Origin: a virus | Direction: 5' to 3' (one strand) | IMG/VR virus record: IMGVR_UViG_3300042351_001561 | Coordinates: 1 to 50,398 of that record | DNA: 50,398 nt | Shown here: positions 9,452 to 23,644 of the stretch, in pieces | How the letters are laid out: every line of letters begins with the position of its first letter | Position numbering within the stretch: the stretch's first letter is position 1 | Made by a program: the position numbers and the translations under genes | Notes under the pieces: generated by a model | What the model was told of the DNA's origin: nothing | What the model saw: only the letters and a program-made list of their open reading frames with translations | Databases searched by the model: none

Positions 9452-9475
9452 TTCTTTTTTTGTTTTTTTTAGGGC

Positions 9476-9503: not shown

Positions 9504-9556
9504 CTTTCATTCACATGATTATATTATTTTTATTTTGTTTTTTTCGATGCATCTGG

Positions 9557-9606: not shown

Positions 9607-10650
9607 ATGGCAAGAAGACCAATTGCGTTCAATAATTCAACAAAAACCGCTAATTCCATTAAAAAAAATAAGGTGGAAGTTGGTGTTGCGTCTGATAACT
9701 ACGCAAGTAGTCCAGGTGGGCTAACTTGGTTTAATGGTGCGGACTCAACATCGCAATATGTTATTTATTCAGATACCTTTAGTCTTGGTATGACCACTCT
9801 TGCAAACGCCAAACCAGTTTGCTGGGCTAGTGGTGACCTAACGGATGTAAATGTTCTTAGAACAATTAACGGATTACCCACAAGATACAATCAGGCACCT
9901 TTTACAACCATCGCTTCAGCGTTGGAGTTTATTACAGCTAGTTCGATTTATAATATGGTTAGCGGTACGCTTGATAACATTGTTACCGATGGTTTGGTTT
10001 TTAATTTAGATGGTTCACAAAAAGGTTCATACCCAGGTTCTGGGTCAAGTTGGTATGATTTAGCTGGTGGGGTTACATCAACATTAACTAATGGTGCAGT
10101 ATATAGCGCCAGCGACAGTGGTATTATGTCTTCTGATGGTGTTAATGATTATGTTGATAGTGGTTATGATTTGAGTTGGAATAACACTAATTCGGTTAGT
10201 GTTGATTTTTGGATGAGACCATCAACAATATCTGGTGGTAATTACGGTATTATAGGAAAAGAATACCCAAGTTGGGAGTGGGCGTTTTATCAAGATAATT
10301 CAAACTTAAACTTAGTTTACTGGAACACAGCTGGTGGTCATACAAATGATATGGATTTTGGTGTAAACGCTTTTCCAACAGCTAATATTTGGTATCATAT
10401 TGTTTACACATGGAATGGATCTGTAAGTTCTTTCTACATTAACGGGACATTAGCTGGCTCCAAAACATCAGTAAACCCAACGATAAACCAAAACAGGTCT
10501 AATAATGTTATGATTGGTGGTCATACATATGTTTGGGGTGATTATTACTGGAACGGTAAAATAGGTGCCGTTAGATTCTATAATAAAGCGTTATCTGGTT
10601 CTGAAATTACACAAAACTTTAACGCATCAAAAACTAAATACGGGTTATAA
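9607..10650 (+). CDS. LamG-domain tail fibre / adhesin
   Basis: A 347-residue protein. Residues 1-130 are a conserved base domain shared with the proteins at 10656 and, more loosely, 15451 (ARRPIAFNNST, PGGLTWFNGAD, SGTLDNIVTDGLV). Residues about 135-347 are a LamG/concanavalin-like domain (GSYPGSGSSWYDLAG, VDFWMRPS, WYHIVYTWNG, YINGTLAGSK, GKIGAVRFYNKALS). LamG domains bind glycans, so this is a likely receptor-binding or decoration protein. The next gene begins 5 bases later. Confidence 0.8.
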   Translation: MARRPIAFNNSTKTANSIKKNKVEVGVASDNYASSPGGLTWFNGADSTSQYVIYSDTFSLGMTTLANAKPVCWASGDLTDVNVLRTINGLPTRYNQAPFTTIASALEFITASSIYNMVSGTLDNIVTDGLVFNLDGSQKGSYPGSGSSWYDLAGGVTSTLTNGAVYSASDSGIMSSDGVNDYVDSGYDLSWNNTNSVSVDFWMRPSTISGGNYGIIGKEYPSWEWAFYQDNSNLNLVYWNTAGGHTNDMDFGVNAFPTANIWYHIVYTWNGSVSSFYINGTLAGSKTSVNPTINQNRSNNVMIGGHTYVWGDYYWNGKIGAVRFYNKALSGSEITQNFNASKTKYGL

Positions 10651-10655
10651 ATATT

Positions 10656-11669
10656 ATGGCAAGAAGACCAATAGCGTTTAATAACTCAACCAAGACCAAC
10701 AACTCCATCAAGAAAAATAAGATAGAGATAGGTCTTGCGTCTGATAGTTACTCAAGTAACCCAGGTGGGTTAACTTGGTTTAATGGAGCTGACTCCACCA
10801 ATCAATATGTAATTTACTCTGACACATTTAGTTTGGGTATGACAACATTGGCTAACGCTAAACCAGTTTGCTGGGCAAGCGGTGATATGACTGATGCTAA
10901 TGTGCTTAGGATGATAAATGGATTACCAACAAGGAATAACCAAGCACCTTTTACAACAATTGACTCAGCTCTTGCTTGGGTTGCTGCGAGTAGTGTTTTT
11001 AATATGGTTAGCGGTACGCTTGATAACATTGTGACCAATGGTTTGGTTTTGAATGTGGACGCTTCACAAAAAGGTTCTTACCCTGGTTCTGGGACAACTT
11101 GGTATGATTTAGCTGGTGCTAATGACGGGATACTAACCAATAGCCCAACATACAATTCTTCCAACGGTGGTTCCATTGTGTTTGATGGTGTTGATGATTA
11201 TGTAGATATTGGTTATAAAATAGGTTTATTAAATAGCGATATCACACAAGAAGCTTGGGTTAATACGGATGTTATGATTAATTGGCATGGTATTATTTCA
11301 AATATGCCAAGTTGGGGCACGGGTTTTAGTTTACAAATAGGTCCCATACAAAACATTGCTGCAATGATTAGTGGTCAATATTTAACAACATCTTGGACAC
11401 CATTAGTAGGTGTGTGGTATCACATAGTTGCAACTCATAGAAGTTCCGATAATTTAAATGTTTTATATGTAAATGGGGTGCAAGAAAATAGTGTAATAAG
11501 AGAAATATCGTATGTGGAAAATGCTGTTACAAGAATTGGTGTTTTTTATACTTATAATCAACTTCATTTTGACGGTAAAATAGGTGTTGTTAGAAGTTAT
11601 AACCGAGCCCTCTCTGCATCAGAAGTCCTTCAAAACTTTGACGCACAAAAAACAAAATTCGGATTATAA
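10656..11669 (+). CDS. LamG-domain tail fibre paralogue
   Basis: A 337-residue tandem paralogue of the preceding protein. The first 130 residues are nearly the same, whereas the LamG half has diverged strongly (different strands after SNGGSIVFDGVDDYVDIGYK). It keeps WYHIVATHRS, LYVNGVQE and GKIGVVRSYNRALS. The pattern of conserved base plus variable lectin-like tip is what host-range diversification produces. Confidence 0.8.
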   Translation: MARRPIAFNNSTKTNNSIKKNKIEIGLASDSYSSNPGGLTWFNGADSTNQYVIYSDTFSLGMTTLANAKPVCWASGDMTDANVLRMINGLPTRNNQAPFTTIDSALAWVAASSVFNMVSGTLDNIVTNGLVLNVDASQKGSYPGSGTTWYDLAGANDGILTNSPTYNSSNGGSIVFDGVDDYVDIGYKIGLLNSDITQEAWVNTDVMINWHGIISNMPSWGTGFSLQIGPIQNIAAMISGQYLTTSWTPLVGVWYHIVATHRSSDNLNVLYVNGVQENSVIREISYVENAVTRIGVFYTYNQLHFDGKIGVVRSYNRALSASEVLQNFDAQKTKFGL

Positions 11670-11675
11670 AAAAAT

Positions 11676-11948
11676 ATGGAAACACAAGAATATACAAATA
11701 GACAATTCATGATATTTAATGTATCAGAATTAAATCAAATTAACTTCACAGAGGTTTTAGAAACATCATCAGAAACGGTTCGCAGATCAGTGGACGGCAC
11801 AAAAACTTTTGTAAAATGGGAAGGTGACCAACCATTATTCATTTCAACATTAACAACCAAAGAAGGTCCTTATACTTATAGTGAAATCCTATCAATTTTG
11901 GCAACACCAGAATGGACTGATCCAAATCCACTAATGGGTGGGATATAA
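11676..11948 (+). CDS. Small protein of the fibre operon
   Basis: A 90-residue acidic protein beginning METQEYTNRQF, 6 bases after the LamG gene. I do not recognise the domain. Its position suggests a fibre chaperone or a small fibre component. It ends before a hairpin at 11982-12004. Confidence 0.6.
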   Translation: METQEYTNRQFMIFNVSELNQINFTEVLETSSETVRRSVDGTKTFVKWEGDQPLFISTLTTKEGPYTYSEILSILATPEWTDPNPLMGGI

Positions 11949-11981
11949 TAATCAACATAACTGAAAAAAAATAATTCAATG

Positions 11982-12005
11982 AAAATGGGTTTTATCACCA
12001 TTTTT
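11982..12005 (+). terminator. Probable terminator of the LamG operon
   Basis: AAAATGG (11982-11988) pairs with CCATTTT (11998-12004), followed by a short T run. It is weaker than the other terminators and is followed at once by a promoter-like element. Confidence 0.45.
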
Positions 12006-12009
12006 GTGA

Positions 12010-12017
12010 TATTTATA
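12010..12017 (+). promoter_or_regulatory. TATTTATA element (tagged genes)
   Basis: TATTTATA lies 20 bases before the chosen ATG at 12038, heading the run of three tagged genes 12038-14570. Confidence 0.5.
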
Positions 12018-12037
12018 TAAATAATATGAGATTAAAT

Positions 12038-12796
12038 ATGAAAAAATTAATATTAAATGAAGAGATTTTACGTTTACGTAAAATAATGGGTCTTAACGAA
12101 AACTTTGAAATGTCTTCAAAAGAAGAATTTAATTTTGAAAAGTCGGCCATTGAATCAGCAAGTGGTGAAGAAGTTGCTCAAAGAGAATTTGATGATTACG
12201 ACAGACCATTATACTATAGTCTTAGTGACGATAACGTACATTACTTTATAGGTGATGGTGATAACGGTAAAACAATCTTTAAGTACAATGCTAAAACTGG
12301 GGAGAGATATCCAGTTGGTGATTTAAAGGATTATGATTCACCTATGAAAGCTAAAGATGAAATGGATAGCGAACTATTTGAAGGTGATCCAGAAGAAAAA
12401 ATGGTCTCATTTGATGATTTATTGGCACAGGATACCGATGGTATGTCACCAGGGGATCAAGAAATGATCGATGCTCACGATGAGGAAGAGGCCAACAAAT
12501 ACGCTTCAAAAAATTACGATGACGTTGAGTCAGGTGCAATCGATGAAGATTGGGGTAGTTCTGATCAAGGATATATGAATAAAATGATTCATTCTAATCT
12601 TAATGAACCAACAGAATTTAACTTCGGGATGTTTGATGATTTAAAAGCTGCGTCCGCTAAAGCCGTTGATCATTTTTGGGATGATTGGGAAGAATATAAT
12701 ACCGATAGGGATGGTTTAGTAAGAAAAGCCATGACATATTATTTAAGAGGATATTTCCCAGATTGGTACGAAAATGTGTCAAAAATGTTCTCATAA
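12038..12796 (+). CDS. Tagged acidic protein
   Basis: A 252-residue protein. I take the ATG at 12038 because MKKLILNEEILRLRKIMGLNE then matches the start of the tag in its neighbours; an ATG at 12026 would add four residues. After the tag the protein is strongly acidic (many Asp/Glu stretches) and ends in an aromatic helix (FWDDWEEY, YFPDWYENVSKMF). No domain is recognised. Acidic cargo is common among phage internal proteins and DNA mimics, but nothing here proves either. Confidence 0.75.
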   Translation: MKKLILNEEILRLRKIMGLNENFEMSSKEEFNFEKSAIESASGEEVAQREFDDYDRPLYYSLSDDNVHYFIGDGDNGKTIFKYNAKTGERYPVGDLKDYDSPMKAKDEMDSELFEGDPEEKMVSFDDLLAQDTDGMSPGDQEMIDAHDEEEANKYASKNYDDVESGAIDEDWGSSDQGYMNKMIHSNLNEPTEFNFGMFDDLKAASAKAVDHFWDDWEEYNTDRDGLVRKAMTYYLRGYFPDWYENVSKMFS

Positions 12797-12826
12797 ATGA
12801 AAAAGCAAATATTAAAAAAAAGTTAA

Positions 12827-13639
12827 ATGAAAAAATTAATACTAAAAGAAGAAATATCTAAGATGCGTTCCATGATGGGTTTAGAAGAAACTGAAATGGA
12901 TATGTTTGACGATAAAGATATATTAGCACAACTTAAAAAATCAATGAAAACATACATTACTGGTAATAACGGACCAGTAGAGGTTAAGTTAATTGATAAA
13001 CGTGAAGGTCATAATGGTGAAGAAAAAACTGTTACTATGGGCCAAGACGAAAGTGGTAATATTAACGTAATGGACATAGATGAAGCTATAAAAGATAAAT
13101 TAATGGTTGGGATAGTTTGTACTATTTTAGCCACTGGATTAGTTTCTTGTACAAAAGATACTGGCGGTGTAGGTTACAATTTTGGGGCTCGTAGAACAAC
13201 ATATGATATCTCTAATCAGCAGAATACAAATAGTAAAATTAAAATATCATCAAATGATTCTGGTGAAAAAACATATGATGTTGATTCAGCATCTGGTAAT
13301 TTAGATAGATTTGCTACTAGCCAAGGTGGTAAATTTAAAAGAGCTATGTCTCCAACAGAAGCAAAGATAATGAACGCTGGAATGGCTTATCAAAGCGAAA
13401 GAATGGCTAATACAAGTAAACGATTAACTCCTAAAAATCTAGTATATGATTTTGATGCTGAAGATGGAATTATATCAACAGATCTTTATAGTACAGAAGT
13501 AGCTAATATGGATGATTGTAGAGAGCACCCATTATGGGTTTTAGGTCTTCAATATTTTAAAGATGATGGGGTTGATACAAACGCTCTTGTTAGAAAAGCT
13601 GATCAAGAAGTAGAAAGTGGTATTAAATATACTAAATAA
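12827..13639 (+). CDS. Tagged protein with internal lipobox-like segment
   Basis: A 270-residue protein. Residues 1-20 are the tag (ILKEEISKMRSMMGLEE). Residues about 88-108 form a hydrophobic stretch ending LVSC followed by TKDTGG, which looks like a lipoprotein signal with lipobox but lies far from the N-terminus. The rest is polar, with no recognised fold. Cleavage after the tag alone would not expose this signal at an N-terminus, so it may instead be a membrane-insertion segment. Tag DNA at 12847-12882 is identical to 13670-13705 in the next gene. Confidence 0.7.
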   Translation: MKKLILKEEISKMRSMMGLEETEMDMFDDKDILAQLKKSMKTYITGNNGPVEVKLIDKREGHNGEEKTVTMGQDESGNINVMDIDEAIKDKLMVGIVCTILATGLVSCTKDTGGVGYNFGARRTTYDISNQQNTNSKIKISSNDSGEKTYDVDSASGNLDRFATSQGGKFKRAMSPTEAKIMNAGMAYQSERMANTSKRLTPKNLVYDFDAEDGIISTDLYSTEVANMDDCREHPLWVLGLQYFKDDGVDTNALVRKADQEVESGIKYTK

Positions 13640-13649
13640 ATTATTTTAA

Positions 13650-14570
13650 ATGAAAAAACCAATATTAACAGAAGAAATATCTAAGATGCGTTCCATGATG
13701 GGTTTGAATGAAGACCAACTGGATATGTTTACTGGTACAGATGATGAAGCACCCGCTGAGGATTCTAATATTGGTAAAAGGGTTATGGTATACTATAACC
13801 TTCATAAAAAAACATTCTCAATACAATATAAAGGTTTGGTAATAGCACATGCTGACTATGTTAAACTTAATAACGTTGAGTTTAGAGTTAGACAAGGTGG
13901 TATGGAAAAAGTTAGATCTGAGATGTCAAAGAATGTACATGCATTCGTTATTGGGGATTTGGTTGACTTTAAACCATACCAATCAACTGACATACCATCA
14001 GCAAGTAGCTCAAAATCAATAACATATGATCCATACAAATATGATACGTTTGTTTATAGAGATACCGAAGAGCCTGTGACCAGCGCTCGTGAGGTTGAGA
14101 TGATAAACCAACCTGGTGGAAAGATTTTTCAAATAAACGAAATTACCGCTTCGTTAAACGAAGAGGGTATTTCATACGACCCATCAAAGATAGATGAGTT
14201 TATTGTTGAGGCAAAAAAAGATATTCAAATGGGTACAGCGTTGATCGAAAAATTTGGATCAGCGGTTGTTAATTCATCTCTAGTTAGCGTTTTTGAAAAC
14301 TTGGAAAAAATGAAAGCCGCCCACCAAAAAATGGAAGCAAGTAGAAAATACCTTGAGAGTAAATTTAACAAGTTTTATGACATCGTTGAGATGTATGAAG
14401 TTGGTGAATACCCAGATAATATTAGAACACTAGATGACTTAGCAAATCAACTTGATAACCACTCTATGACAGTGTATCAGTTAGCAGACGCTTTTGAGGA
14501 GCTTATTAGTATGACTGAAAAAATTAGTCAATATAATGAAGAATTATTTAAAACACAAACAATTAATTAA
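13650..14570 (+). CDS. Tagged protein with conserved phage N-terminal domain
   Basis: A 306-residue protein. The tag (ILTEEISKMRSMMGLNE) is followed by an acidic linker. Then comes a conserved phage domain at about residues 43-110 (GKRVMVYYNLHKKTFSI, VIAHADYVKLNNVEFRVRQGG, KNVHAFVIGDLV). The C-terminal half is helical, with several long charged helices. Function is unknown. It starts 10 bases after the previous tagged gene and is followed 3 bases later by a fibre gene. Confidence 0.75.
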   Translation: MKKPILTEEISKMRSMMGLNEDQLDMFTGTDDEAPAEDSNIGKRVMVYYNLHKKTFSIQYKGLVIAHADYVKLNNVEFRVRQGGMEKVRSEMSKNVHAFVIGDLVDFKPYQSTDIPSASSSKSITYDPYKYDTFVYRDTEEPVTSAREVEMINQPGGKIFQINEITASLNEEGISYDPSKIDEFIVEAKKDIQMGTALIEKFGSAVVNSSLVSVFENLEKMKAAHQKMEASRKYLESKFNKFYDIVEMYEVGEYPDNIRTLDDLANQLDNHSMTVYQLADAFEELISMTEKISQYNEELFKTQTIN

Positions 14571-14573
14571 ATC

Positions 14574-15428
14574 ATGGCAACAGCAAGACCTTTCGCATAT
14601 AATCCTGGATCACCAATAGCTGGAACAGAACAGCTTGGTGATTTAGCAGTTGGATTTCCAGATTATGGTTTCACAAATGATCCACAATTTTGGAACGGAC
14701 CTGACGAAGAGTTGGGTTATACAATCGCATTACCAGTTTCAGGTAACACACAACCAACACCAATACCTGGTGTAACAGCTTCTGTTCGTTTTATCAGATC
14801 AGGTGCTTTAACAGAAGAATCTTTTCTTGGGTTGGTTAACACACAATTTGGTCAAAATTTTGATTCAGGCGGGGATGCAAAGATTTGGTTAGATGGCCAA
14901 GGTTACTGGAGCAGCTGGTCTGGTTTTGGTAGTTCAGGATTCCAATGGATGACAATGACTAGTATCGGAAGTTCTTCAGCGGCTGGGGTGGGTCAAAACG
15001 GTATTACCGTTTCTATTACACAAAGCAACGGTGGTATGCAAACAGAGAATCCAGGTATGTACAGCGCTAGCACGTTCCCAGAAACATATGGCGTACCAAT
15101 CACTGGGGATCAGATCCGAAACACCACAACAGGTGTGTTTACAGCAACATTTAGTCAACCTGTTACCGATCCTTTGGTTGCGTTTGCTAGTGTTGGTAAC
15201 CCAGGGTTACAGGTTCCAGTTCAAGTATCTGCACCGTTCACACCAATTTTTGGTGTGGATACAACTTATCAAAATGCATCAGGACCAACACAATACACTC
15301 AATTTACTGGACAAGAAGGATTTAATATTATCCGTATAGATGGCACAGTAACTAGTGTAAGTTTTACTTATACTGTTACAGAATACTATTGCACAGTTTG
15401 TTTTGGGTTTGTTGATCAAAATCCATAA
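14574..15428 (+). CDS. Tail fibre / virion surface protein
   Basis: A 284-residue protein. The N-terminus (FAYNPGSPIAGTEQLGDLAVGF, FWNGPDEELGYTIA) is the conserved base domain of fibre proteins in this phage group. Residues about 95-125 (GLVNTQFGQNFDSGGDAKIWLDGQGYW) recur in such fibres. The rest is beta-rich and Thr/Ser/Gly-rich, with an unassigned tip domain. The nearby LamG fibres use a related but different base. Confidence 0.75.
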   Translation: MATARPFAYNPGSPIAGTEQLGDLAVGFPDYGFTNDPQFWNGPDEELGYTIALPVSGNTQPTPIPGVTASVRFIRSGALTEESFLGLVNTQFGQNFDSGGDAKIWLDGQGYWSSWSGFGSSGFQWMTMTSIGSSSAAGVGQNGITVSITQSNGGMQTENPGMYSASTFPETYGVPITGDQIRNTTTGVFTATFSQPVTDPLVAFASVGNPGLQVPVQVSAPFTPIFGVDTTYQNASGPTQYTQFTGQEGFNIIRIDGTVTSVSFTYTVTEYYCTVCFGFVDQNP

Positions 15429-15450
15429 ATAGGTTTTAATTTTTTAAAAG

Positions 15451-17115
15451 ATGGCCAATAAAGTCGTAGCATATAATAGTGGAACAGTAACAGCTTATGG
15501 TACCAAATATGGTAACCATGAAGTTGGTACGGTTGCTAATGACTATAGGGTGAATACTGGTGGTTTAACTTGGTATAACTCACCCACACATAGCAATGAT
15601 TATGTTATGATTTCCAACTCATATGAGCTTGGGTTTAGCACGCAAGGTAACGCAAAACCTTTATTTTGGGTGGCTAGCAGTGATGCTGATTTTTTAGCGA
15701 TAGTAAACAAATTAAACGACAGACGTGGTATGGCTTTGTTGAATACGGTTGCGGCTGCTGTAATCTGGGTTAACGCTAGTAACAAATATTATTTGATTAA
15801 TACACCAAATCTCGTAACTTCGGGACTTATTATGCAATTAGACGCTAATGAAACCGATAGTTACCCAGGTTCAGGAACAACGGTATTTAATTTACAAAGT
15901 GGTTCGTATAACCATACTTTAACGGGAGCTACATATACCGTGCTTGATGGAATTAAATGTTTTGATTGCACAACAGGAACTAAAAGAGTTGTCGTGGATG
16001 GAACTGGTCCTACCTTACCAACTTCGGGATACACATATATTACTTGGGCAAGAATCATTTCAAGTTCTGCTAATTGGAGATCTTTACTTAGAACCAACAA
16101 TAGTGTTCCACTTTTAGTTGAAGTTGCAACTGATAATTTGGGTTACTATGATTCCGTATTCCGAGATTCGGGGTATGATGTTACACCAGATGAAGATGTG
16201 TGGGTACAATATGCGGTAGTCGGAGATGATACATCAAGTATTTTTTATATTAACGGAACTCAGGTTGGAACGGTTGCTTATGGTGCGGGTGGAGATACTC
16301 ATCTAGAATGGGGTAATAATGTCACCGCAGGACAACCATTTGGATACATAGCGAATTTATATTTTTATAATAGGAAATTAACGTTAGGAGAAATAACACA
16401 ACAATACAATTATTTGGCCCCAAGATTTGTGGCACCTGTAACAAGTAACCTTAGGTTATATTATGACCCAAGTAATTTATCAAGTTACCCTGGAACAGGT
16501 ACGACAATTAATGATTTATCAGGTAATGGTTTGAATGGTACAATGTCCAATATCACATATACATCACCATACTTTACATATAATGGTTCTTCATCACAAA
16601 TAGCAATTGCGGATAATGTATTATTAGAGCCTGGAAGTGGGGATTGGACTATGGAAGTATGGGTGAATCAAGCAGTTTTAGGTAATGATGTTGTTCTTGG
16701 AAAGTTTGATAATGGGGGGTTAACTATAGATGTAAGTTATAGTATCAGAACAACCAATACTACATACTACGCTCAATTGGGTTCAGGTAGTGGTAGTGGT
16801 TCATCATTGTTTGTTAATAGTACAAACTACGTTGGAACGATTGGTACTTGGTATCAGATAGTTTATGTGTTTACTAATGTCGCATCTAATACACTTGAAA
16901 CATTTGTAAATGGTGTAAGTATAGGAAGTGTAAGTCATAGTTTACCAAGTATATTAAACTCAACTAACCCACTTTACATAGGTAGTTATAATGGTGGGGA
17001 ATACTCTCAATACTTTGATGGAAAAATTGGTATAACTCGTTTATACAACGCAGCGCTTACCTCAGCACAAGTATTACAAAACTTTAATGCGGATAAATCA
17101 AAATACGGATTATAA
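15451..17115 (+). CDS. Double-LamG tail fibre / adhesin
   Basis: A 554-residue protein. It has the same base domain as the proteins at 9607 and 10656 (VVAYNSG, NTGGLTWYNSP). Two LamG-like domains follow: about 130-325 (SYPGSGTTVFNLQSG, FYINGTQVGTVAYG) and about 335-554 (SSYPGTGTTINDLSGNGLNGTMSN, WTMEVWVNQ, GTWYQIVYVFT, GKIGITRLYNAALTSAQVLQNF). Probably binds host or environmental glycans. A bidirectional terminator follows. Confidence 0.8.
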   Translation: MANKVVAYNSGTVTAYGTKYGNHEVGTVANDYRVNTGGLTWYNSPTHSNDYVMISNSYELGFSTQGNAKPLFWVASSDADFLAIVNKLNDRRGMALLNTVAAAVIWVNASNKYYLINTPNLVTSGLIMQLDANETDSYPGSGTTVFNLQSGSYNHTLTGATYTVLDGIKCFDCTTGTKRVVVDGTGPTLPTSGYTYITWARIISSSANWRSLLRTNNSVPLLVEVATDNLGYYDSVFRDSGYDVTPDEDVWVQYAVVGDDTSSIFYINGTQVGTVAYGAGGDTHLEWGNNVTAGQPFGYIANLYFYNRKLTLGEITQQYNYLAPRFVAPVTSNLRLYYDPSNLSSYPGTGTTINDLSGNGLNGTMSNITYTSPYFTYNGSSSQIAIADNVLLEPGSGDWTMEVWVNQAVLGNDVVLGKFDNGGLTIDVSYSIRTTNTTYYAQLGSGSGSGSSLFVNSTNYVGTIGTWYQIVYVFTNVASNTLETFVNGVSIGSVSHSLPSILNSTNPLYIGSYNGGEYSQYFDGKIGITRLYNAALTSAQVLQNFNADKSKYGL

Positions 17116-17141: not shown

Positions 17142-17165
17142 AAAAGGAGCTTTTAAGCTCCTTTT
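17142..17165. terminator. Strong bidirectional terminator
   Basis: AAAAGGAGCTT (17142-17152) and AAGCTCCTTTT (17155-17165) are perfect inverted copies with a 2-base loop, flanked by A and T runs. It separates convergent genes, and the stop of the minus-strand gene lies in the hairpin. Confidence 0.85.
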
Positions 17166-17683
17166 TCATTTTCTTTAATTATTAGTTCACCTAGAACTTC
17201 CATTTTCCCGAGCAGTTCTTGAAAATCTATTTGTTCAATACCCATATCATCTTTAGTGGATGTGTATAGTTTTTCTAACAAATCTTTGTATTCTTTCTTA
17301 GCGTCTTCCATATCCAACTCACCTTTGGAAGCTTTTTCGTAATATTCTAATTTAACTTCGAAATGGTGGTACGTTAATAAAGCGGCACCACCTTTTTCTT
17401 TGGCGTTACCAGCAATTGTTTCAGCACCACCCAATCTTGTTTCAGCAAATGATTCAAGTTTTGTTGATTCATCTTCGGCCAATTCAATAGGGTTTCCTGG
17501 ACCATGGTTTGTTCTTATGGTAGAGGGTGCATTACCGACAGGATTACCTGGGCCACGAACAACCTTATCAGTCCATTTATGTTTTGTTGTACCAGTTGGG
17601 TTTTGCGATTGTGGGGTTGACCCATCCTCATTTAAACCCATCATAGTTTTTATACGTGATATTTGTTCGTTAATGTTTTCCAT
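17153..17683 (-). CDS. Tagged helical protein
   Basis: A 176-residue protein. Residues 3-19 are the tag (INEQISRIKTMMGLNE). A Pro/Gly/Thr-rich linker follows (about 20-70), then a helical half with SFAETRLGGAETIAGNAKEKGGAALLTYHHFEVKLEYYEKA, a pattern I associate with other orphans of this phage group. Function is unknown. The flexible linker after the tag looks like a spacer between a removable leader and a folded cargo. Confidence 0.75.
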   Translation of the reverse strand: MENINEQISRIKTMMGLNEDGSTPQSQNPTGTTKHKWTDKVVRGPGNPVGNAPSTIRTNHGPGNPIELAEDESTKLESFAETRLGGAETIAGNAKEKGGAALLTYHHFEVKLEYYEKASKGELDMEDAKKEYKDLLEKLYTSTKDDMGIEQIDFQELLGKMEVLGELIIKENEKGA

Positions 17684-17954: not shown

Positions 17955-19316
17955 TTAATTAATGTAGTTTGTTAATTCATATCTACCAGATTCCATTCTA
18001 TATAAAGAGATCTGTAACATTTTTCTAGCTGGCATACCATCCTTTGAATCTCCCACTATTTTAAACCAACCTCTATCATCTTCTTCGCCAGGTTTAAGTG
18101 ATTTAAATTTAAATGAAGCAAGAAACTCTCCTTGTGAATACATTTTTAATGTATTTTCATTAAAATCAAATGATAAAGTAAAAACCTTTCCAGTACCAGA
18201 ATTGGTAAAGAAATCAGTAGGTTGCGTTACCGATTTTGTTCTTCCACCCGATTGACTCGAAAAAGTTTTTTCATAGTTATCTGCGGTAAAACCACCATAT
18301 TTATTTAATTCAATTATACCTAATTCAGTTACCTTAATTTTAACCTCTTTAACCATTAATTCAACGCTGTAACTAACCGTTTGACCATAAGCAACATGTT
18401 CTGGGTTAATACTTTCCCAATTAACAGTATAACCTTTATTTGTGGCATATTCTTCTGCTGATTCTAAAGCACCCGCTTGAGTCTCAAAATACGTTTCTTG
18501 TTGGATTTTTCTAGCCTCACCCATTTCTTTGTTTTCATAAACTGGACCATCTTTACCACCTCTAGTTTCCATAAAAGATTTTTCTTCTTCCTCAAGCTCT
18601 TTTTGTAATTTATCAATACTTTCCATAGCAAGATCCCAACCACCGATCGCTGACTCCTCGTCAACCTCTTCTCTAATACCTAAATTATCTAATGCGTCTC
18701 TAGTATCTTCGAACCCAGGGATATCTTTGGGTGTTTCTTGTTCATTATCAATTTTAGTTATAAGTTCTTTAATATATTCATCAGCATTCATCTTCGTAAC
18801 AACACCAGAAACAAACTCGTTGGCTTTAGTGTTTTCTTCCCCACCCAATTCATCTGCAAGAACCATAATCATACCCATCTGTTCGAAAGTCATCCTGTTA
18901 GATGGTCTATTCAAAATAGCGGTTGATTTACTAATATTCTCATCTATTTCTTCTTCAGCCTCACAATGCTCACCACATTCAGAACAAATGTCATGCATAA
19001 CAATAGGTGCACCACAACAATCTGAAAGACCTTCACCATCACTATCACTAGGGTCAAACGCTTCATTTTTTTCAAATGTTTCTGGATCTCTATCTTGTTT
19101 ATTAGCGGTTGCGTAATAAACTTCTTCACCTTTTTCTTTACCGTATTGATCTTTGAATTTATCTTTAACCTCATCGTTTTCACCCATCTCTTCTTCTCTC
19201 ATTGAGTTTACTATATCTGAAGGGGAAAGTTCTTTTATGGTATCTGGGCTAGTATGGGTAACACCCATCATTTCTTGTATTCTGGTAAGTTCTTCGTTTA
19301 AACTAATTTTTTTCAT
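17955..19316 (-). CDS. Tagged multidomain protein with zinc ribbon
   Basis: A 453-residue protein. The N-terminal tag (SLNEELTRIQEMMGVTHT) keeps the first LNE but not the second cleavage-like site. Residues about 58-80 (DQYGKEKGEEVYYATANK) are a phage-conserved motif. Residues about 97-120 are a zinc ribbon (LSDCCGAPIVMHDICSECGEHCE). A long acidic helical region follows, and the last 160 residues look beta-rich. Function is unknown. A TATTTATA element at 19329-19336 precedes the start. Confidence 0.7.
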   Translation of the reverse strand: MKKISLNEELTRIQEMMGVTHTSPDTIKELSPSDIVNSMREEEMGENDEVKDKFKDQYGKEKGEEVYYATANKQDRDPETFEKNEAFDPSDSDGEGLSDCCGAPIVMHDICSECGEHCEAEEEIDENISKSTAILNRPSNRMTFEQMGMIMVLADELGGEENTKANEFVSGVVTKMNADEYIKELITKIDNEQETPKDIPGFEDTRDALDNLGIREEVDEESAIGGWDLAMESIDKLQKELEEEEKSFMETRGGKDGPVYENKEMGEARKIQQETYFETQAGALESAEEYATNKGYTVNWESINPEHVAYGQTVSYSVELMVKEVKIKVTELGIIELNKYGGFTADNYEKTFSSQSGGRTKSVTQPTDFFTNSGTGKVFTLSFDFNENTLKMYSQGEFLASFKFKSLKPGEEDDRGWFKIVGDSKDGMPARKMLQISLYRMESGRYELTNYIN

Positions 19317-19328
19317 AAAAGCGTTTAT

Positions 19329-19336
19329 TATAAATA
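19329..19336 (-). promoter_or_regulatory. TATTTATA element, minus strand
   Basis: Reads TATTTATA on the minus strand 12 bases before the ATG at 19316, heading the three-gene run 19316 to 17153. Confidence 0.5.
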
Positions 19337-19383
19337 CTTTTATAAATGAAAAAAAGACGGTACTGGTAATTTAAATGTTAAGT

Positions 19384-19456
19384 CGTCCTAGCTGGATTCG
19401 AACCAGCGGCCTTTTTCGTATCAGGAAAATGCTCTAACCAACTGAGCTACAGGACG
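19384..19456 (-). tRNA. tRNA-Ile(GAT)
   Basis: Full cloverleaf on the minus strand: acceptor CGTCCTG/TAGGACG with one G-U, anticodon stem TTTTC/GAAAA, loop CTGATAC giving anticodon GAT, and a GGTTCGAATCC T-arm. Last tRNA of the array in transcription order. Confidence 0.95.
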
Positions 19457-19472
19457 ATAAATTAGATTTTGC

Positions 19473-19517
19473 ACAATAAAGTAGGTTGCTTTATCGTAGC
19501 AAAAACAGGTTTATTGT
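19473..19517. repeat. Structured spacer between tRNA-Ile and tRNA-Arg
   Basis: ACAATAAA (19473-19480) and TTTATTGT (19510-19517) are perfect inverted arms enclosing a smaller TTGCT/AGCAA pairing. No T tract follows, so it looks like a processing hairpin rather than a terminator. Confidence 0.5.
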
Positions 19518-19590
19518 ACCTTCAGAGAGACTCGAACTCCCAACCCTTTCATTCGTATTGAAATACTCTAATCCATTGAGCTATGAAGGT
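19518..19590 (-). tRNA. tRNA-Arg(ACG)
   Basis: Cloverleaf with acceptor ACCTTCA/TGAAGGT, anticodon stem TTTCA/TGAAA, loop ATACGAA giving ACG, and a GAGTTCGAGTC T-arm. An A34 anticodon would normally need deamination to inosine. Confidence 0.93.
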
Positions 19591-19596
19591 ATTTTG

Positions 19597-19670
19597 GGTG
19601 ACTGATGGGTTTCGATCCCACTACCTTTGGTTCCACAAACCAATGCTCTCCCGATTGAGCTACAGACACC
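19597..19670 (-). tRNA. tRNA-His(GTG)
   Basis: Anticodon stem TTGGT/ACCAA with loop TTGTGGA gives GTG. The extra 5' G (G-1) opposite C73, diagnostic of tRNA-His, is present. The acceptor has one T-T mismatch, and the T-loop is ATCGAAA rather than TTCGAAT. Confidence 0.9.
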
Positions 19671-19678
19671 ATGTATGG

Positions 19679-19750
19679 TAGCGAGAGGGAGTTTCGAAAT
19701 CCCGACCTTTCGGATATGAGCCGAATGCTCTTCCTCTGAGCTATCTCGCC
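19679..19750 (-). tRNA. tRNA-Met(CAT)
   Basis: Acceptor GGCGAGA/TCTCGCT, anticodon stem TTCGG/CCGAA, loop CTCATAT giving CAT. It could be elongator Met, or Ile2 if lysidine-modified. The acceptor starts with a G-U rather than the mismatch of initiators. Confidence 0.92.
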
Positions 19751-19755
19751 ATTTT

Positions 19756-19772
19756 CTCGCCAATCTGGCGAG
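19756..19772. repeat. Hairpin copying the tRNA-Met 5' end
   Basis: CTCGCCA and TGGCGAG pair around a 3-base loop between tRNA-Gln and tRNA-Met. On the minus strand GGCGAGATAG, the first ten bases of tRNA-Met, has an inverted counterpart here, so the precursor could fold alternatively. Confidence 0.45.
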
Positions 19773-19779
19773 ATAGTTG

Positions 19780-19850
19780 TTGTCCTGAGAGGATTCGAAC
19801 CTCTATTCTCTGGATCAAAACCAGATGTGCTGCCTTTACACCACAGGACA
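19780..19850 (-). tRNA. tRNA-Gln(TTG)
   Basis: Starts TGTCCTGTGG as tRNA-Gln species do, acceptor TGTCCTG/CAGGACA, anticodon stem TCTGG/CCAGA, loop TTTTGAT giving TTG. Confidence 0.93.
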
Positions 19851-19856
19851 ATATAG

Positions 19857-19929
19857 TGGAGCCAGTGGGACTTGAACCCACATCCTCTACCTTGCAAGGG
19901 TAGCGCTCAGCCAATTGAGCTATGACCCC
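19857..19929 (-). tRNA. tRNA-Ala(TGC)
   Basis: Acceptor GGGGTCA/TGGCTCC containing the G3-T70 (G3:U70) pair that identifies tRNA-Ala, anticodon stem CTACC/GGTAG, loop CTTGCAA giving TGC. It begins 1 base after the stop of the HExxH gene. Confidence 0.95.
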
Positions 19930-19930
19930 A

Positions 19931-20389
19931 TTAATTTTGTCGAAGACGTATCTGTTTTAAACAATGGGTCAACAGATACTGTTCAACATTAGGTATTTTC
20001 CTTAAGAAGTCATACTCATATGAATAACAAAGTATTTCTTCTCTTGGTGATTCTTGAATACCCCTATGTCTAAGATAAAGATGTAAAGATTCGTGTACAA
20101 TAACAGCAGCGAGATTATTTAAGGATTTAGCCTTAGCATCTGTAGATGATATTATTATACTTCCTTTTGTATCTTTAGAACCCTCATTTGTTGAGTAACC
20201 ACCAGACCAAAAAGTTATTTTATCACAAACTTGTAACACAAGTTTATAAGTTGTGGTATCTGTTTGCTTAATAATCGCTAATGCGCTATCAGCTTTTAGA
20301 TCCCAACCATCCCCAGCTTTATCTATTACAATTTGTGATTTACAAATCGTTGTGGATAAAACCATTATGATTATTATTAGTTTTCTCAT
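19931..20389 (-). CDS. Exported HExxH metallopeptidase-like protein inside the tRNA array
   Basis: A 152-residue protein. The start at 20389 gives a signal peptide (MRKLIIIIMVLSTTICKSQ). The mature part has VIVHESLHLYL, an HExxH zinc-protease motif, followed about 15-20 residues later by EEILCYSYEYDF, which could supply a third Glu ligand. Family is not clear. An exported zinc protease in a tRNA array is odd: it may act on the cell wall or envelope, or be a moron gene. A TATTTATT word (20393-20400) precedes the start, so it may also be transcribed on its own. Confidence 0.7.
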   Translation of the reverse strand: MRKLIIIIMVLSTTICKSQIVIDKAGDGWDLKADSALAIIKQTDTTTYKLVLQVCDKITFWSGGYSTNEGSKDTKGSIIISSTDAKAKSLNNLAAVIVHESLHLYLRHRGIQESPREEILCYSYEYDFLRKIPNVEQYLLTHCLKQIRLRQN

Positions 20390-20401
20390 ACTAATAAATA
20401 G

Positions 20402-20484
20402 TGCCAGCAGGTGGACTCGAACCACCGAACTCAAATGAGAGCGGGTTTACAATCCGCTGCAATTGCCGCTATGCGATACTGGCA
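20402..20484 (-). tRNA. tRNA-Tyr(GTA)
   Basis: Class II tRNA with a long variable arm (CTCATTTGAG). Acceptor TGCCAGT/GCTGGCA, anticodon stem GCGGA/CCCGC with an A-C at the loop end, loop TTGTAAA giving GTA. The base after the acceptor is C rather than the usual A. Confidence 0.85.
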
Positions 20485-20624
20485 AGTAAGGAAAGAGGAA
20501 GATGGTCTAGTGGACATCCTCTTTTACGATCGGCATTACTTAGGTGAATACCTACAAACTCCGATCACACCAGTCAGTATTCACTCTCGAACTATTAATG
20601 TGATCATTCCCCGATCAACCTTTG
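20485..20624 (-). ncRNA. Structured spacer, possible small stable RNA
   Basis: A 140-base gap inside the array that does not fold as a tRNA. It contains AAGAGGA/TCCTCTT arms (20493-20499, 20517-20523) with a GTC/GAC inner stem. It also has GATCGG/CCGATC arms (20528-20533, 20561-20566) enclosing a perfect TAGGT-GAAT-ACCTA hairpin. T4 also carries two stable RNAs of unknown function in its tRNA cluster. Whether this is such an RNA, a decayed tRNA or a processing spacer is open. Confidence 0.4.
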
Positions 20625-20697
20625 TACACCCTATAGGACTCGAACCTATGACATCTGCCATGTAAGGGCAGCGCTCTACCAACTGAGCTAAAGGTGC
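20625..20697 (-). tRNA. tRNA-Val(TAC)
   Basis: Acceptor GCACCTT/AGGGTGT with two wobbles, anticodon stem CTGCC/GGCAG, loop CTTACAT giving TAC, normal T-arm. Confidence 0.94.
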
Positions 20698-20702
20698 ATG
20701 TG

Positions 20703-20782
20703 TACCCCTGGCAAGACTCGAACTTGCAATGCTTTCGCTCTGGTTTCTAAGACCAGCGGCTATACCATTCGCCTACAAGGGC
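20703..20782 (-). tRNA. tRNA-Leu(TAG)
   Basis: Class II tRNA with variable arm AGCGAAAGCAT, acceptor GCCCTTG/CAGGGGT, anticodon stem CTGGT/ACCAG, loop CTTAGAA giving TAG. Reads CTA and CTG. Confidence 0.93.
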
Positions 20783-20788
20783 ATTTAG

Positions 20789-20861
20789 CACGCCTGGCTG
20801 GATTCGAACCAACGACACCTGGTTTTGGAGACCAGTGCTCTACCAACTGAGCTACAGACGT
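20789..20861 (-). tRNA. tRNA-Trp(CCA)
   Basis: Acceptor ACGTCTG/CAGGCGT, anticodon stem CTGGT/ACCAG, loop CTCCAAA giving CCA, discriminator G. Confidence 0.94.
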
Positions 20862-20870
20862 GTGTATTTG

Positions 20871-20940
20871 AGTATAAGGTTGGAATCGAACCAACACCGT
20901 TGGTGTTGCAGACCAACCGACCACCACGATCAACTTATAC
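20871..20940 (-). tRNA. tRNA-Cys(GCA)
   Basis: Acceptor GTATAAG/CTTATAC, anticodon stem TTGGT/ACCAA, loop CTGCAAC giving GCA, discriminator T as expected for tRNA-Cys. The D-loop is unusually short. Confidence 0.88.
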
Positions 20941-20945
20941 ATTTG

Positions 20946-21020
20946 TGTCCCCGATGAGATTCGAACTCATGACTCCCTCATTAAAAGTGAGGTGCTCTAA
21001 ACCAACTGAGCTACGAAGAC
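20946..21020 (-). tRNA. tRNA-Lys(TTT)
   Basis: Acceptor GTCTTCG/CGGGGAC, anticodon stem CCTCA/TGAGG, loop CTTTTAA giving TTT, normal T-arm. Confidence 0.94.
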
Positions 21021-21026
21021 ATTTTG

Positions 21027-21102
21027 TCAGGATAGCTGGATTCGAACCAGCGATCCCCTGCGTCCAAGGCAGGTAGGGACGACCTGACTCCCCCATATCC
21101 TG
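21027..21102 (-). tRNA. tRNA-Pro(TGG)
   Basis: Acceptor CAGGATA/TATCCTG, anticodon stem CCTGC/GCAGG, loop CTTGGAC giving TGG. First tRNA transcribed, 30 bases after the attenuator's T run. Confidence 0.94.
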
Positions 21103-21132
21103 AAATAAATTACCAATACGTCAAAGAACTGC

Positions 21133-21163
21133 AAAAAAAAACCCTGAACTTGTAGGTCCAGGG
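21133..21163 (-). terminator. Attenuator terminator before the tRNA array
   Basis: On the minus strand CCCTGGAC pairs with GTTCAGGG around a 6-base loop, followed by nine T. It stands between the leader peptide and tRNA-Pro. Its 5' arm (CTGGACCT, 21161 to 21154) can instead pair along all eight bases, with one G-U, with AGGTTCAG of the leader (21224 to 21217). Confidence 0.85.
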
Positions 21164-21199
21164 CTTTGTGTTTTCTAGTTTTAGTTTTATTCTATAACA

Positions 21200-21298
21200 T
21201 TATGAAAATACTTGGTCTGAACCTGGCACGGCATGACGATACCACTGGCAAATTGCCATCGGTTTAATCACTGCGATATGTAGGTTCATATTTTTCAT
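21200..21298 (-). CDS. Putative 32-residue leader peptide of the tRNA operon
   Basis: A short reading frame in the leader transcript, starting 25 bases downstream of a host-type -7 box in an A-rich start context. Codons 6-21 read LHIAVIKPMAICQWYR. These 16 residues contain exactly the 13 amino acids of the downstream tRNAs (Leu, His, Ile, Ala, Val, Lys, Pro, Met, Cys, Gln, Trp, Tyr, Arg) and nothing else. Codons 22-25 stay in the set. Each of the 13 has at least one codon its phage tRNA can read, including CTA for anticodon TAG. The codons are more GC-rich than in neighbouring genes. Role inferred: ribosome stalling on any of these codons switches the downstream terminator off. I found no other function to propose. 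Confidence 0.75.
   Translation of the reverse strand: MKNMNLHIAVIKPMAICQWYRHAVPGSDQVFS
21217..21288 (-). promoter_or_regulatory. Leader RNA with alternative pairing (regions 1 and 2)
   Basis: Region 1, TGAACCT (21288 to 21282), at codons 4-6, pairs perfectly with region 2, AGGTTCA (21224 to 21218), at codons 25-28. Between them lie inner pairings (TGGCA/TGCCA and others). Region 2 can alternatively pair with region 3 in the terminator 5' arm. The geometry is that of the trp attenuator: a stall at codons 6-21 blocks region 1 and leaves region 2 free for antitermination, whereas a ribosome at the end of the peptide covers region 2 and allows termination. Confidence 0.7.
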
Positions 21299-21322
21299 TT
21301 TACGTTATTGTTATAATTAGTA

Positions 21323-21353
21323 CAAAAGTAAGCAAAGTTCCTTTAATAAACAA
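21323..21353 (-). promoter_or_regulatory. Host-type promoter of the tRNA leader
   Basis: On the minus strand TTG (21353-21351), then 20 bases, then TACTTTTG (21330-21323). This matches the Bacteroidetes primary-sigma consensus (-33 TTG, -7 TAnnTTTG). The same 20-base spacing recurs at 31222, 34918, 34935, 37700 and 41128. Confidence 0.8.
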
Positions 21354-21370
21354 GTTTTTTTTAATTTTTT

Positions 21371-21616
21371 TTAAAAATCATCATCCTGGTCATCATCAAA
21401 CTCACTTTTTTCATTAATATAATAACCTTCTTCGATATCGGTTATTATAGTTTCAATCTCATAAAGGACATCATCTATTCTGCCAAAAATGTTTTCAGAT
21501 ACATCATCTTTAAAGTTCTCATTATTGATTTCTCCTAATTTATTTTGTTGTTCATCAGCTAATATTATTAACTGTTGTTGTAATTCTTTTAAGTATTCAA
21601 GTGCAATTTTATTCAT
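21371..21616 (-). CDS. Small acidic helical protein
   Basis: An 81-residue protein, helical and acidic (DIEEGYYINEKSEFDDDQDDDF at the C-terminus). No family recognised. It is preceded by TATTTATT on the minus strand at 21633-21640. Transcription from it would run into the tRNA leader. Confidence 0.6.
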   Translation of the reverse strand: MNKIALEYLKELQQQLIILADEQQNKLGEINNENFKDDVSENIFGRIDDVLYEIETIITDIEEGYYINEKSEFDDDQDDDF

Positions 21617-21717
21617 ACCCTATTTTTTAATCAATAAATATCCGTATTTATTGCAAAAGTTATTTCATGTTTAACACTTTTTTTTTCAAAGTAAATGGTT
21701 TTTTTAAGTTTTTTTTA

Positions 21718-21725
21718 TATTTATA
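21718..21725 (+). promoter_or_regulatory. TATTTATA element (exported-protein cluster)
   Basis: TATTTATA ends 20 bases before the ATG at 21746 and heads the plus-strand cluster 21746-30214, whose genes are spaced by -4 to 12 bases. Confidence 0.5.
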
Positions 21726-21745
21726 AGTAATCAAAACAACTAAAC

Positions 21746-23644
21746 ATGAAAAATTTCTTTTTAACGCTAGTGCTGGCGTTTGTAACCGTAATTGGTTATG
21801 CACAAACAACCGCACCATCAAATGGTAATTGGGTTATCGTTGACTCTTCTTACAATGTTGGTCCGCAATCTCAAGGTTACACTTTAGCTAACCTTTATTA
21901 TGACAACACAACAACGACTAAAATCGCTGGTTTACAGTTTCGTGTATTTTACGACAAAGTAGCTTTTGGTGGTGCAAAACCAATTGTAACTTTACAGTAC
22001 AGTTCTACTGATCAGTACATGCAATATGTTGCCGATTCTGTTAACGGTAATATTACTGTTACATTGGCTTACACAGGTACAAACACCGCATTTACATATT
22101 CTACTGGTACTGCGTTCCAAATAAAGTTCTTCCATCAAAACTCAACAGCCTTCCAAGCTTTGACAAGTATTGATAGTTTAAAGGTAACTGGTACTTTGAC
22201 ATTTCCATCTTATGCCTCAACAATTGCTGGTATGGATACAACGTTATCTTTACACAGTTATGGTGGTGAATTTAAGATGAATAGATTGAAATACCACGGT
22301 AGATTCACAAACGTAACAGGTTCTGGTTCTAAGAACATTACAGTTGCTCTTGAGAAAAGACCTAAGACATCAAGTGGTGCTTGGACTCAAGTAAAGCTTG
22401 ACACAACAGATCTTACTGGTTATTTCGCTTTTGATGAAATCTTGGATACAACTTATTGGGATGCTCATTTATATGTTAAGGGTGATACAATGGGTGTTGG
22501 TAACACGGTATCTGTTGCTGATGCACAAAGAGTTAACAAATATATTCTTGGCGAAATGACACCAACTGGGTTTGATTATTACGCTTCAGACGTTAACGGA
22601 TCAAATAGTATTACAATCGCTGACGTATCAGCTATCTATGGTCGTTTAGCGGGTAGATTCTCTGTATGGCCAAACTCTGTACAAGATGTAAGATTCTTCA
22701 CAGTTTCACAATATGGAACCATCAACGGTTCTTCAACTAACTATACCTCATCAATTGCTGGTGTAACTAACCTAACATTTGATATCATTGCTGGTCAACC
22801 AGACTCAGTAACGTATTATGTATTAGGTGGTGGTGATGCTAACGGTACTGGATTCAACATGGCTCGTACAATCCCTATTGAAATTTTAAACCCAAGCAAA
22901 ACTCCTAAATATATTATTGACGAAACTGTTGAGTATGATTTCCCTACATCAACAATCGAAATTAATTTACCAAAAATCGAAATCACTGAAGGTAGTTTAG
23001 TAAACGTACCAATGAAAGTTTTAACTTATGGTAATCAAGTTGGTTCAGCTCAATTAGCTTTAGCTTATGACAAAACTTTATTGGAGTTCAAGGGTATTAA
23101 AACTGAAGAAAAATTTATGAACTGGATGTCATTCTTAAACCCTAACAACGGTGTTATTGAATGGGCTGGTGCTGATATGAGTAATAATAAATATTTAGCT
23201 AATGATGGTGATAATATTTTAACTTTACAATTCACAGCACTATCACCACAAACAAGCTGGAACAATAGTCCTTTATATGTTATTAGAAAATATGCTGGTG
23301 ATGCAAACGCAACCGATTTAAGAATAACACCAACAAATGGTGTTGTTAAAATATTCAGAATAAATGGTGGTGGTGTATTAACAAAAGATTGTGAAATAAT
23401 GGTATGCCCTAACCCAACAGAAGGTTTGGCTCTTGTGAGTTTTAGCGTACCTGAAGATGGTGAGATAACCGTTGGTTTTTATGATGTAAACGGAAAATTA
23501 GTATACACGGTTTTTAGTGGTAAAATGTATGAAGGTAAGTACCTTTATCCAGTTGACTTAACTAACGTTACACCTGGTACATATTACGGTGTTTTACAAA
23601 CAGGATCTCAAACCAAAACAAATAAAACAATAAAACTAAATTAA
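21746..23644 (+). CDS. Exported protein with dockerin-like and cohesin-like regions and T9SS C-terminal domain
   Basis: A 632-residue protein. Signal peptide at residues 1-19, ending GYAQ. Residues about 27-180 look like a cohesin-type beta sandwich. About 255-305 is dockerin-like, with paired VADAQRVNKYILG and DVNGSNSITIADVSAIYGRLAG calcium-loop repeats. About 405-540 is a second cohesin-like domain (VPMKVLTYGNQVGSAQLALAYDKTLLEFKGI). The last 80 residues (CPNPTEGLALVSF, GEITVGFYDVNGKLVY, LTNVTPGTYYGVLQTGSQTKTNKTIKLN) are a type A sorting domain for the type IX secretion system. So the protein is predicted to reach the surface of an infected Bacteroidetes cell. This is host-like architecture in a phage genome. 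Confidence 0.8.
   Translation: MKNFFLTLVLAFVTVIGYAQTTAPSNGNWVIVDSSYNVGPQSQGYTLANLYYDNTTTTKIAGLQFRVFYDKVAFGGAKPIVTLQYSSTDQYMQYVADSVNGNITVTLAYTGTNTAFTYSTGTAFQIKFFHQNSTAFQALTSIDSLKVTGTLTFPSYASTIAGMDTTLSLHSYGGEFKMNRLKYHGRFTNVTGSGSKNITVALEKRPKTSSGAWTQVKLDTTDLTGYFAFDEILDTTYWDAHLYVKGDTMGVGNTVSVADAQRVNKYILGEMTPTGFDYYASDVNGSNSITIADVSAIYGRLAGRFSVWPNSVQDVRFFTVSQYGTINGSSTNYTSSIAGVTNLTFDIIAGQPDSVTYYVLGGGDANGTGFNMARTIPIEILNPSKTPKYIIDETVEYDFPTSTIEINLPKIEITEGSLVNVPMKVLTYGNQVGSAQLALAYDKTLLEFKGIKTEEKFMNWMSFLNPNNGVIEWAGADMSNNKYLANDGDNILTLQFTALSPQTSWNNSPLYVIRKYAGDANATDLRITPTNGVVKIFRINGGGVLTKDCEIMVCPNPTEGLALVSFSVPEDGEITVGFYDVNGKLVYTVFSGKMYEGKYLYPVDLTNVTPGTYYGVLQTGSQTKTNKTIKLN

Follow-up and report, generated by a model that had tools for sequence, protein, structure and literature searches.

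The window analysed here is a whole 50,398-nucleotide stretch of viral DNA (positions 1 to 50,398 of IMG/VR record IMGVR_UViG_3300042351_001561). On its minus strand, a promoter-like site, a short open reading frame (ORF), an intrinsic terminator, a boxA-like motif, and a tRNA array follow one another from 5' to 3' (Table 1). By direct reading and ARAGORN, the promoter-like site, the 32-codon frame, the nine-T terminator, and the 13 tRNA genes were all present as the initial annotation had claimed. The anticodons called by ARAGORN are Pro TGG, Lys TTT, Cys GCA, Trp CCA, Leu TAG, Val TAC, Tyr GTA, Ala TGC, Gln TTG, Met CAT, His GTG, Arg ACG, and Ile GAT. Comparison of the ORF translation with these calls bore out the claim that codons 6-21 of the leader contain all 13 array amino acids and no other. 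The three segments proposed to pair (TGAACCT, AGGTTCAG, and CTGGACCT) were likewise found in place, and the pairing between regions 2 and 3 spans eight bases, one of which is a G-U pair. Among random 31-mers, an unbroken in-set run with all 13 amino acids arose in none of 8,000,000 drawn with the amino-acid composition of this phage and in 137 of 2,000,000 when every amino acid was equally frequent. Both figures are uncorrected for the choice of feature, which is irrelevant because tests on other phages exist. The window leader peptide matched nothing in Pfam or PHROG.

Table 1. Elements of the leader unit and tRNA array in the window
Feature	Position	Strand	Detail or basis
Promoter-like site, Bacteroidota type	21323..21353	minus	TTG (21353-21351), 20 nt, TACTTTTG (21330-21323); read directly
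Leader peptide ORF, 32 codons	21200..21298	minus	translation MKNMNLHIAVIKPMAICQWYRHAVPGSDQVFS
Census codons 6-21, exactly the 13 array amino acids	21236..21283	minus	ORF and tRNA calls
Region 1, TGAACCT, codons 4-6	21282..21288	minus	can pair with region 2
Region 2, AGGTTCAG, codons 25-28	21217..21224	minus	candidate antiterminator strand
Region 3, CTGGACCT, within terminator 5' arm	21154..21161	minus	read directly, and pairing test
Intrinsic terminator, nine T, boundary of leader and tRNA array	21133..21163	minus	T run ends at 21133
boxA-like motif TTCTTTGACGTATTGG, between terminator and first tRNA	21113..21128	minus	read directly
Array of 13 tRNA genes	19382..21102	minus	ARAGORN; 13 Rfam tRNA matches above the gathering score

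A secreted-looking protein of 154 amino acids is encoded inside the array (20395-19931, minus strand), between tRNA-Tyr and tRNA-Ala. It contains HESLH and appears metallopeptidase-like by eye, had no Pfam or PHROG match, and occurs in relatives, also in those without tRNAs. Elsewhere in the window, 8633-9514 on the minus strand encodes a class II tRNA-synthetase-like domain (PF00152, E 1.4e-17), with which the phage may charge tRNAs or make asparagine. Three related-looking proteins within 9607-17115 (9607-10650, 10656-11669, and 15451-17115) have LamG-like features by eye and may belong to the tail or a fibre. As judged by eye, nine otherwise different predicted proteins have in common a roughly 18-residue motif resembling LNEEISKMRSMMGLNE; it lies near the N-terminus in eight (902-1510, 5222-5710, 5718-6755, 12026-12796, 12827-13639, 13650-14570, 17153-17683, and 17955-19316) and is C-terminal in 1515-2606. 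The motif may tag proteins for targeting or packaging. Between 44052 and 46370 lie long open frames of low complexity, most of them on the minus strand.

Relatives of the window

Relatives were recruited via the gene inside the array (13 loci) and the gene upstream (10 loci), several of them on the same contigs. In six loci (L010, L011, L012, L019, L020, and L021), a leader of the same type lies directly 5' of an array with the same 13 amino acids. In L021, the unit comes after an insertion that brings additional tRNAs, and it still adjoins the main array. The tRNA-bearing relatives have a second tRNA-Pro, except the near-identical contig 3300034284_001172. Two further near-identical contigs, 3300046000_010717 and 3300046003_007106, have no tRNAs at the locus and are without the leader and the promoter; they retain the terminator, there 3' of a gene for 81 amino acids, and the boxA-like site.

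The family comprises five distinct leaders, in which 20 of the 32 codons are invariant. Every substitution within codons 6-22 (at 9, 10, 16, 21, and 22) replaces one member of the set by another, and each leader keeps all 13; in L312, for instance, Ala and Val are swapped at codons 9 and 10. The initial annotation had also placed HAVP (codons 22-25) within the set. This holds for the window and is not conserved: codon 25 is Ser in relatives and codon 23 is Thr in some of them, so that substitutions at these two codons leave the set in some leaders. L327 retains a family leader over a changed array, and leaders may thus lag behind array changes. L312 seemed to have lost tRNA-Met, but ARAGORN had overlooked it: the sequence does contain a tRNA with a CAT anticodon. 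In L021-L025 (about 6598-6673) and in L312 (at 6164), a tRNA of the amber-suppressor type, with anticodon CTA, lies 5' of the leader unit and outside the array; stop-codon recoding is possible.

Identification of leader units in other phages

Other loci were recruited from IMG/VR contigs with the motif TTCTTTGACRTATTGG and one variant, each scan giving at least 120 matches. Among the matches listed, the motif often lay 22-30 nt 5' of a tRNA, with a different short frame and a terminator further upstream. Sixty regions were extended and then scanned with a rule blind to amino-acid content. The rule called for an ATG frame of 15-60 codons whose stop lies 12-60 nt 5' of an intrinsic terminator and for the next tRNA within 350 nt of that terminator; no promoter was needed. 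The terminator of units other than that of the window is hence a requirement of the rule and was not tested separately. At least 125 units of frame, terminator, and tRNA were obtained from the IMG/VR contigs among the matches listed.

Of 111 distinct viral sites with the motif (among the matches listed), 57 had a tRNA no more than 60 nt away. Where this was so, a unit was found in or upstream of the array in 49 of 53 evaluable arrays; the same count for the motif variant was 22 of 25.

Leaders were clustered at 50% identity, which reduced 125 units to 69 clusters. Fourteen of these were excluded because the array was truncated at a contig end or its amino-acid count was below 2 or above 18; the other 55 served as representatives. 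Shared descent within leader families was handled by clustering only.

A second set was held out from this recruitment. It consisted of LR745206.1, LR756501.1, and LR756502.1 (634-735 kb), recruited by tRNA similarity and not by the motif, which we take to be records of the huge-phage survey.

Composition match between leaders and arrays

In the 55 representatives, the fraction of leader residues belonging to the leader's own array was 0.642 versus 0.463 for permuted pairs (z 13.5), coverage of the own array was 0.947 versus 0.751 (z 10.5), and phi was 0.401 versus 0.010 (z 11.8); none of 20,000 permutations reached the observed value in any of the three. Clustering at 40% identity left 44 representatives with z values of 12.0, 9.2, and 10.3 for in-set fraction, coverage, and phi, respectively. 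A looser clustering into 27 merged clusters (z 7.8 and 5.3, phi undefined) was superseded by the 50% identity set. The match was significant both when arrays had 2-9 amino acids and when they had 10-18. By centred in-set fraction, the own array ranked first for 27 of the 55, and in L324 the amino-acid set of the leader equals the 16 amino acids of its array. Seven of the 55 (L286, L287, L302, L174, L272, L233, and L091) showed no excess over other leaders on the same array, defined as an in-set fraction at most 0.015 above, or below, the other leaders' value. An exact census, in which a single unbroken segment contains every array amino acid, occurred in 28 of all 72 units against an expectation of 2.7; a few of these 28 have arrays of only one amino acid, for which it is easy.

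Three further comparisons gave the same result. The other five frames of the same DNA did not match (z -2.3 to 1.7); the coding constraint that the initial annotation had expected of the leader codons is thus present, as the match is confined to the coding frame. This frame specificity implies that the leader is translated, in the absence of ribosome or transcript data. At 18 loci with at least two units, the summed own fit exceeded the summed crossed fit in 20 of 20 comparisons; these include related phages, and pairs that agreed in array set or in leader had been excluded. In the held-out huge phages, the blind rule returned 17 units (0.458 versus 0.162, z 8.3, 0/20,000, unclustered), and the match persisted with clustering to 14 units (z 7.3) and 10 units (z 6.3; 0/20,000 each). 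One of them has an array of four tRNA-Gln and the leader MTTSFQQQQQQQINRTD; another has an Arg, Ser array and the leader MKTINNTSKSSSRSSSMSEIRLYS. Held-out L469 resembles the main-set leader L248 (68%).

A chance match of leader and array is rejected on the permutation, frame, crossed-pairing, exact-census, and held-out tests. The test proposed at the outset, that leaders of unrelated phages with different tRNA sets should differ accordingly, was passed in the permutations and the held-out units. As judged from sequence, the census of array amino acids in the leader is real and general in the sampled phages.

The unit was not found everywhere. No unit was seen in the inspected stretches of Bacteroides phage DAC15 (ARAGORN calls one tRNA, the record has two) and Cellulophaga phi10:1 (two tRNAs). 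Tenacibaculum PTm1 and Cellulophaga phi14:2 had no tRNA match, and no unit was present at the tRNA genes of T4. KVP40 had one candidate unit, which is uninformative because its array covers nearly all amino acids.

Leader peptides of the erm type sense general slowdown. A leader of this kind, reading the general speed of translation with its composition a mere bystander, would account for part of the data, as region 2 would be freed by a stall of any cause and large arrays cover most amino acids. It does not predict the finer features of the match. Small arrays are matched sharply (Gln only; Arg and Ser; Pro/His/Gln; Ser/Arg/Trp). The mean number of codons per amino acid grows with the number of tRNA genes for it (0.82, 1.80, 2.79, 2.85, and 4.08 for 0, 1, 2, 3, and at least 4 genes). 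After codon 6, codon boxes track the anticodons for Arg (21:5 versus 5:17, p 0.0001) and Ile (4:0 versus 6:37, p 0.001), and weakly for Leu (6:0 versus 16:19, p 0.02); those for Ser do not (p 0.12). We therefore regard a general speed sensor as very improbable.

Pairing and folding of the leader transcript

Pairing was compared between own and swapped partners in the 55 units. Region 2 paired with the 5' arm of its own terminator at -14.9 kcal/mol versus -8.95 kcal/mol for swapped arms (z -17.8); the own terminator was the best partner in only 21 of 55, with a median rank of 2. Region 1 preferred its own region 2 over swapped ones (z -8.9). A clear region 2 was absent in 6 of the 55 units. In the other 49, the composition match was limited to codons from roughly -22 to -2, counted from region 2, and was gone from codon -1 onward (z -1.2 to 0.6), and it was weak in codons 2-5 of the leader (z -1.2 to 2.1). 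That the match ends where region 2 begins agrees with the prediction of trp-type attenuation. The match was strong in codons -4 to -2, although a stall there would partly cover region 2.

Equilibrium folds were computed for the RNA downstream of the ribosome, in a transcript that stops short of the terminator's 3' arm. The model assumes a footprint reaching 11 nt beyond the first A-site base and omits the RNA upstream of the ribosome. The modelled class mean of sequestered terminator arm was 0.11 with the ribosome at the stop codon versus 0.62-0.71 when it was stalled at least 12 codons earlier, and in every one of the 55 units, sequestration at the best of 12 stalled positions was more than 0.1 higher than at the stop. 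In the window, an A site at the census codons 6-21 or at codon 22 left region 2 free; sequestration was 0.58 at codons 6-22, 0.34 at codon 23, and 0.09 at codon 24. The predicted switch between codons 22 and 24 coincides with the end of the census. The weak points of the window are that the stalled state reached only 0.58 and that a ribosome at the stop codon still gave 0.24. For an untranslated leader, sequestration was 0.26 in the window and 0.66 as the class mean. The trp-like geometry first proposed for the window alone thus extends across the 55 units in pairing and stall model, and across 49 of them in position profile; its default-off state without translation is supported by the fold model in the window but is not shown for the class.

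The terminator might instead merely end the upstream gene, with the tRNAs transcribed from elsewhere and the leader match serving something other than attenuation, such as control at the level of processing. Its retention 3' of the 81-amino-acid gene in relatives without tRNAs fits this idea. The complementarity of region 2 to its own terminator and the end of the match at region 2 do not, nor does the presence of a unit in or upstream of nearly all evaluable arrays at boxA-like sites. Moreover, no promoter-like site was seen by eye between the terminator and the first tRNA, in the absence of a promoter scan. Little credence is left for this alternative.

boxA-like motif and putative hosts

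The A-form of the motif was located in the 16S-23S spacer, by Rfam, at 12 of 12 hand-picked genome loci. This choice was biased, as the loci were mostly short contigs resembling rRNA operons. Among the first 20 of at least 120 genome matches, 11 were in the spacer (in two of these, the 23S gene itself lay beyond the locus), including 10 of the 15 with Bacteroidota titles; Rfam found no rRNA near the other nine of these 20. An earlier regular-expression search for rRNA ends near the motif (16S 0/120, 23S 14/120 of the matches listed) was superseded by Rfam. The pattern of terminator followed by boxA was found in none of 395 Bacteroidota genomes. On sequence grounds, the motif downstream of the terminator, which the initial annotation had not mentioned, is similar to boxA sites in the rRNA spacers of Bacteroidota. 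The phage shares this 16-base motif with the rRNA operons; it differs in placing it between a candidate conditional terminator and tRNA genes.

TAnnTTTG, which we take to be a Bacteroidota promoter element, occurred within 70 nt 5' of the ATG in 24 of the 55 representatives, against a mean of 2.2 and a maximum of 7 in 500 shuffles. Inferred from the boxA-like motif and the promoter type, the hosts of the class are apparently Bacteroidota.

Discussion

The trp, his, ilv, and thr operons are controlled by leader-peptide transcription attenuators. Such attenuators combine a short ORF carrying regulatory codons, 1:2, 2:3, and 3:4 pairings that exclude one another, and a terminator before the operon, and a stall is expected to free region 2. 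The phage units are alike in each respect. Their codons relate to the controlled tRNA genes, the 2:3 and 1:2 pairings are both specific to the unit, and the codons sit where a stall frees region 2, according to the 49-unit profile and the 55-unit model; in the window, an intrinsic terminator separates leader and operon. The phage units differ in preceding tRNA genes, in polling up to about 16 amino acids rather than a few, and in having as regulatory codons those of the tRNAs they control. The Rfam Thr_leader model gave a weak match at 21203-21133 (22.6 bits versus a gathering score of 55, E 0.36).

We conclude that the phage tRNA operon is very probably controlled by a ribosome-mediated transcription attenuator whose leader spells out the amino acids of the operon's tRNAs and, in part, their codon boxes. 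Composition and structure are observed here; regulation is inferred from them without expression data. When all needed charged tRNAs are present, the ribosome would reach the stop codon and cover region 2, the terminator would form, and the tRNAs would stay off. If any one tRNA were short, the ribosome would stall in the census codons, region 2 would pair with the 5' arm of the terminator, and RNA polymerase would read into the array. Without translation, region 1 would pair with region 2 and transcription would terminate, a step with folding support in the window only. Our confidence is slightly lowered because the untranslated-leader folds do not support this default termination. In Escherichia coli, boxA-bound factors antiterminate rRNA operon transcription. 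By analogy, polymerase that has passed the terminator may load host rRNA antitermination factors at the boxA-like site, which would take it through the long untranslated array. That the site recruits Nus factors is an inference, with no binding or transcription data; lying downstream of the terminator, it would not override the attenuator. An ordinary functional micropeptide that precedes tRNA genes by accident can scarcely be maintained: the 20 invariant codons in the window's relatives would suit it, but dissimilar leaders of other phages fit their own arrays, leaders at the same locus diverge along with their arrays, pairing regions 1 and 2 take in codons 4-6 and 25-28, and the lack of a Pfam or PHROG match speaks against any known family.

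The proposed attenuator can also be set against other sensing systems. T-boxes bind uncharged tRNA directly. Like them, the phage unit would sense the state of tRNA through transcription termination; unlike them, it carries its information in a coding frame. A T-box at the locus was rejected, as no T-box family was among the 26 Rfam matches in 19000-22000 (E up to 1). In erm-type leaders, too, a ribosome stall in a short ORF alters RNA folding; only in the phage leader does the codon content mirror the operon. The available parts of PMC2965389 treat leader peptides, erm-type ones among them, and do not contain the term 'phage'; those of PMC7162821 discuss huge-phage tRNAs and contain neither 'leader' nor 'attenuat'. 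As far as PMC12409363 was accessible, it presents phage tRNAs as a counter-defence to tRNA-cleaving immunity such as PARIS. There, as here, the phage supplies tRNAs that infection may deplete; inducible leader-peptide control of phage tRNAs was not found for it among the open PMC matches listed. More broadly, the matches listed from open PMC full text, which leave out bioRxiv and include few subscription papers, held no precedent for leader-peptide control of phage tRNA genes and no earlier report of a class of tRNA-census leaders. Precedent elsewhere in the literature cannot be excluded.

Why phages carry tRNAs, and whether they express them constantly or on demand, is unsettled to our knowledge. 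We suggest, tentatively and in the awareness that it may well not hold, that the arrays are an inducible response, each with its own co-evolving detector peptide that would poll all tRNAs the phage can replace and through which any missing one would switch the set on. Phage tRNAs would then be a regulated counter-defence rather than a constitutive help with codon usage, and a phage with several sub-arrays would have several independent detectors. If this is true, host immunity that cleaves tRNAs is an example of what would trigger an array; host anticodon nucleases, codon mismatch, and plain shortage are all candidate triggers. The class speaks for on-demand expression of tRNAs, and the leader itself names the input of each array. 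It thereby predicts which shortage would switch on which tRNA set, so that sequence alone could tell which tRNAs a phage expects to lose, and the leaders would form a natural library of multi-amino-acid sensors.
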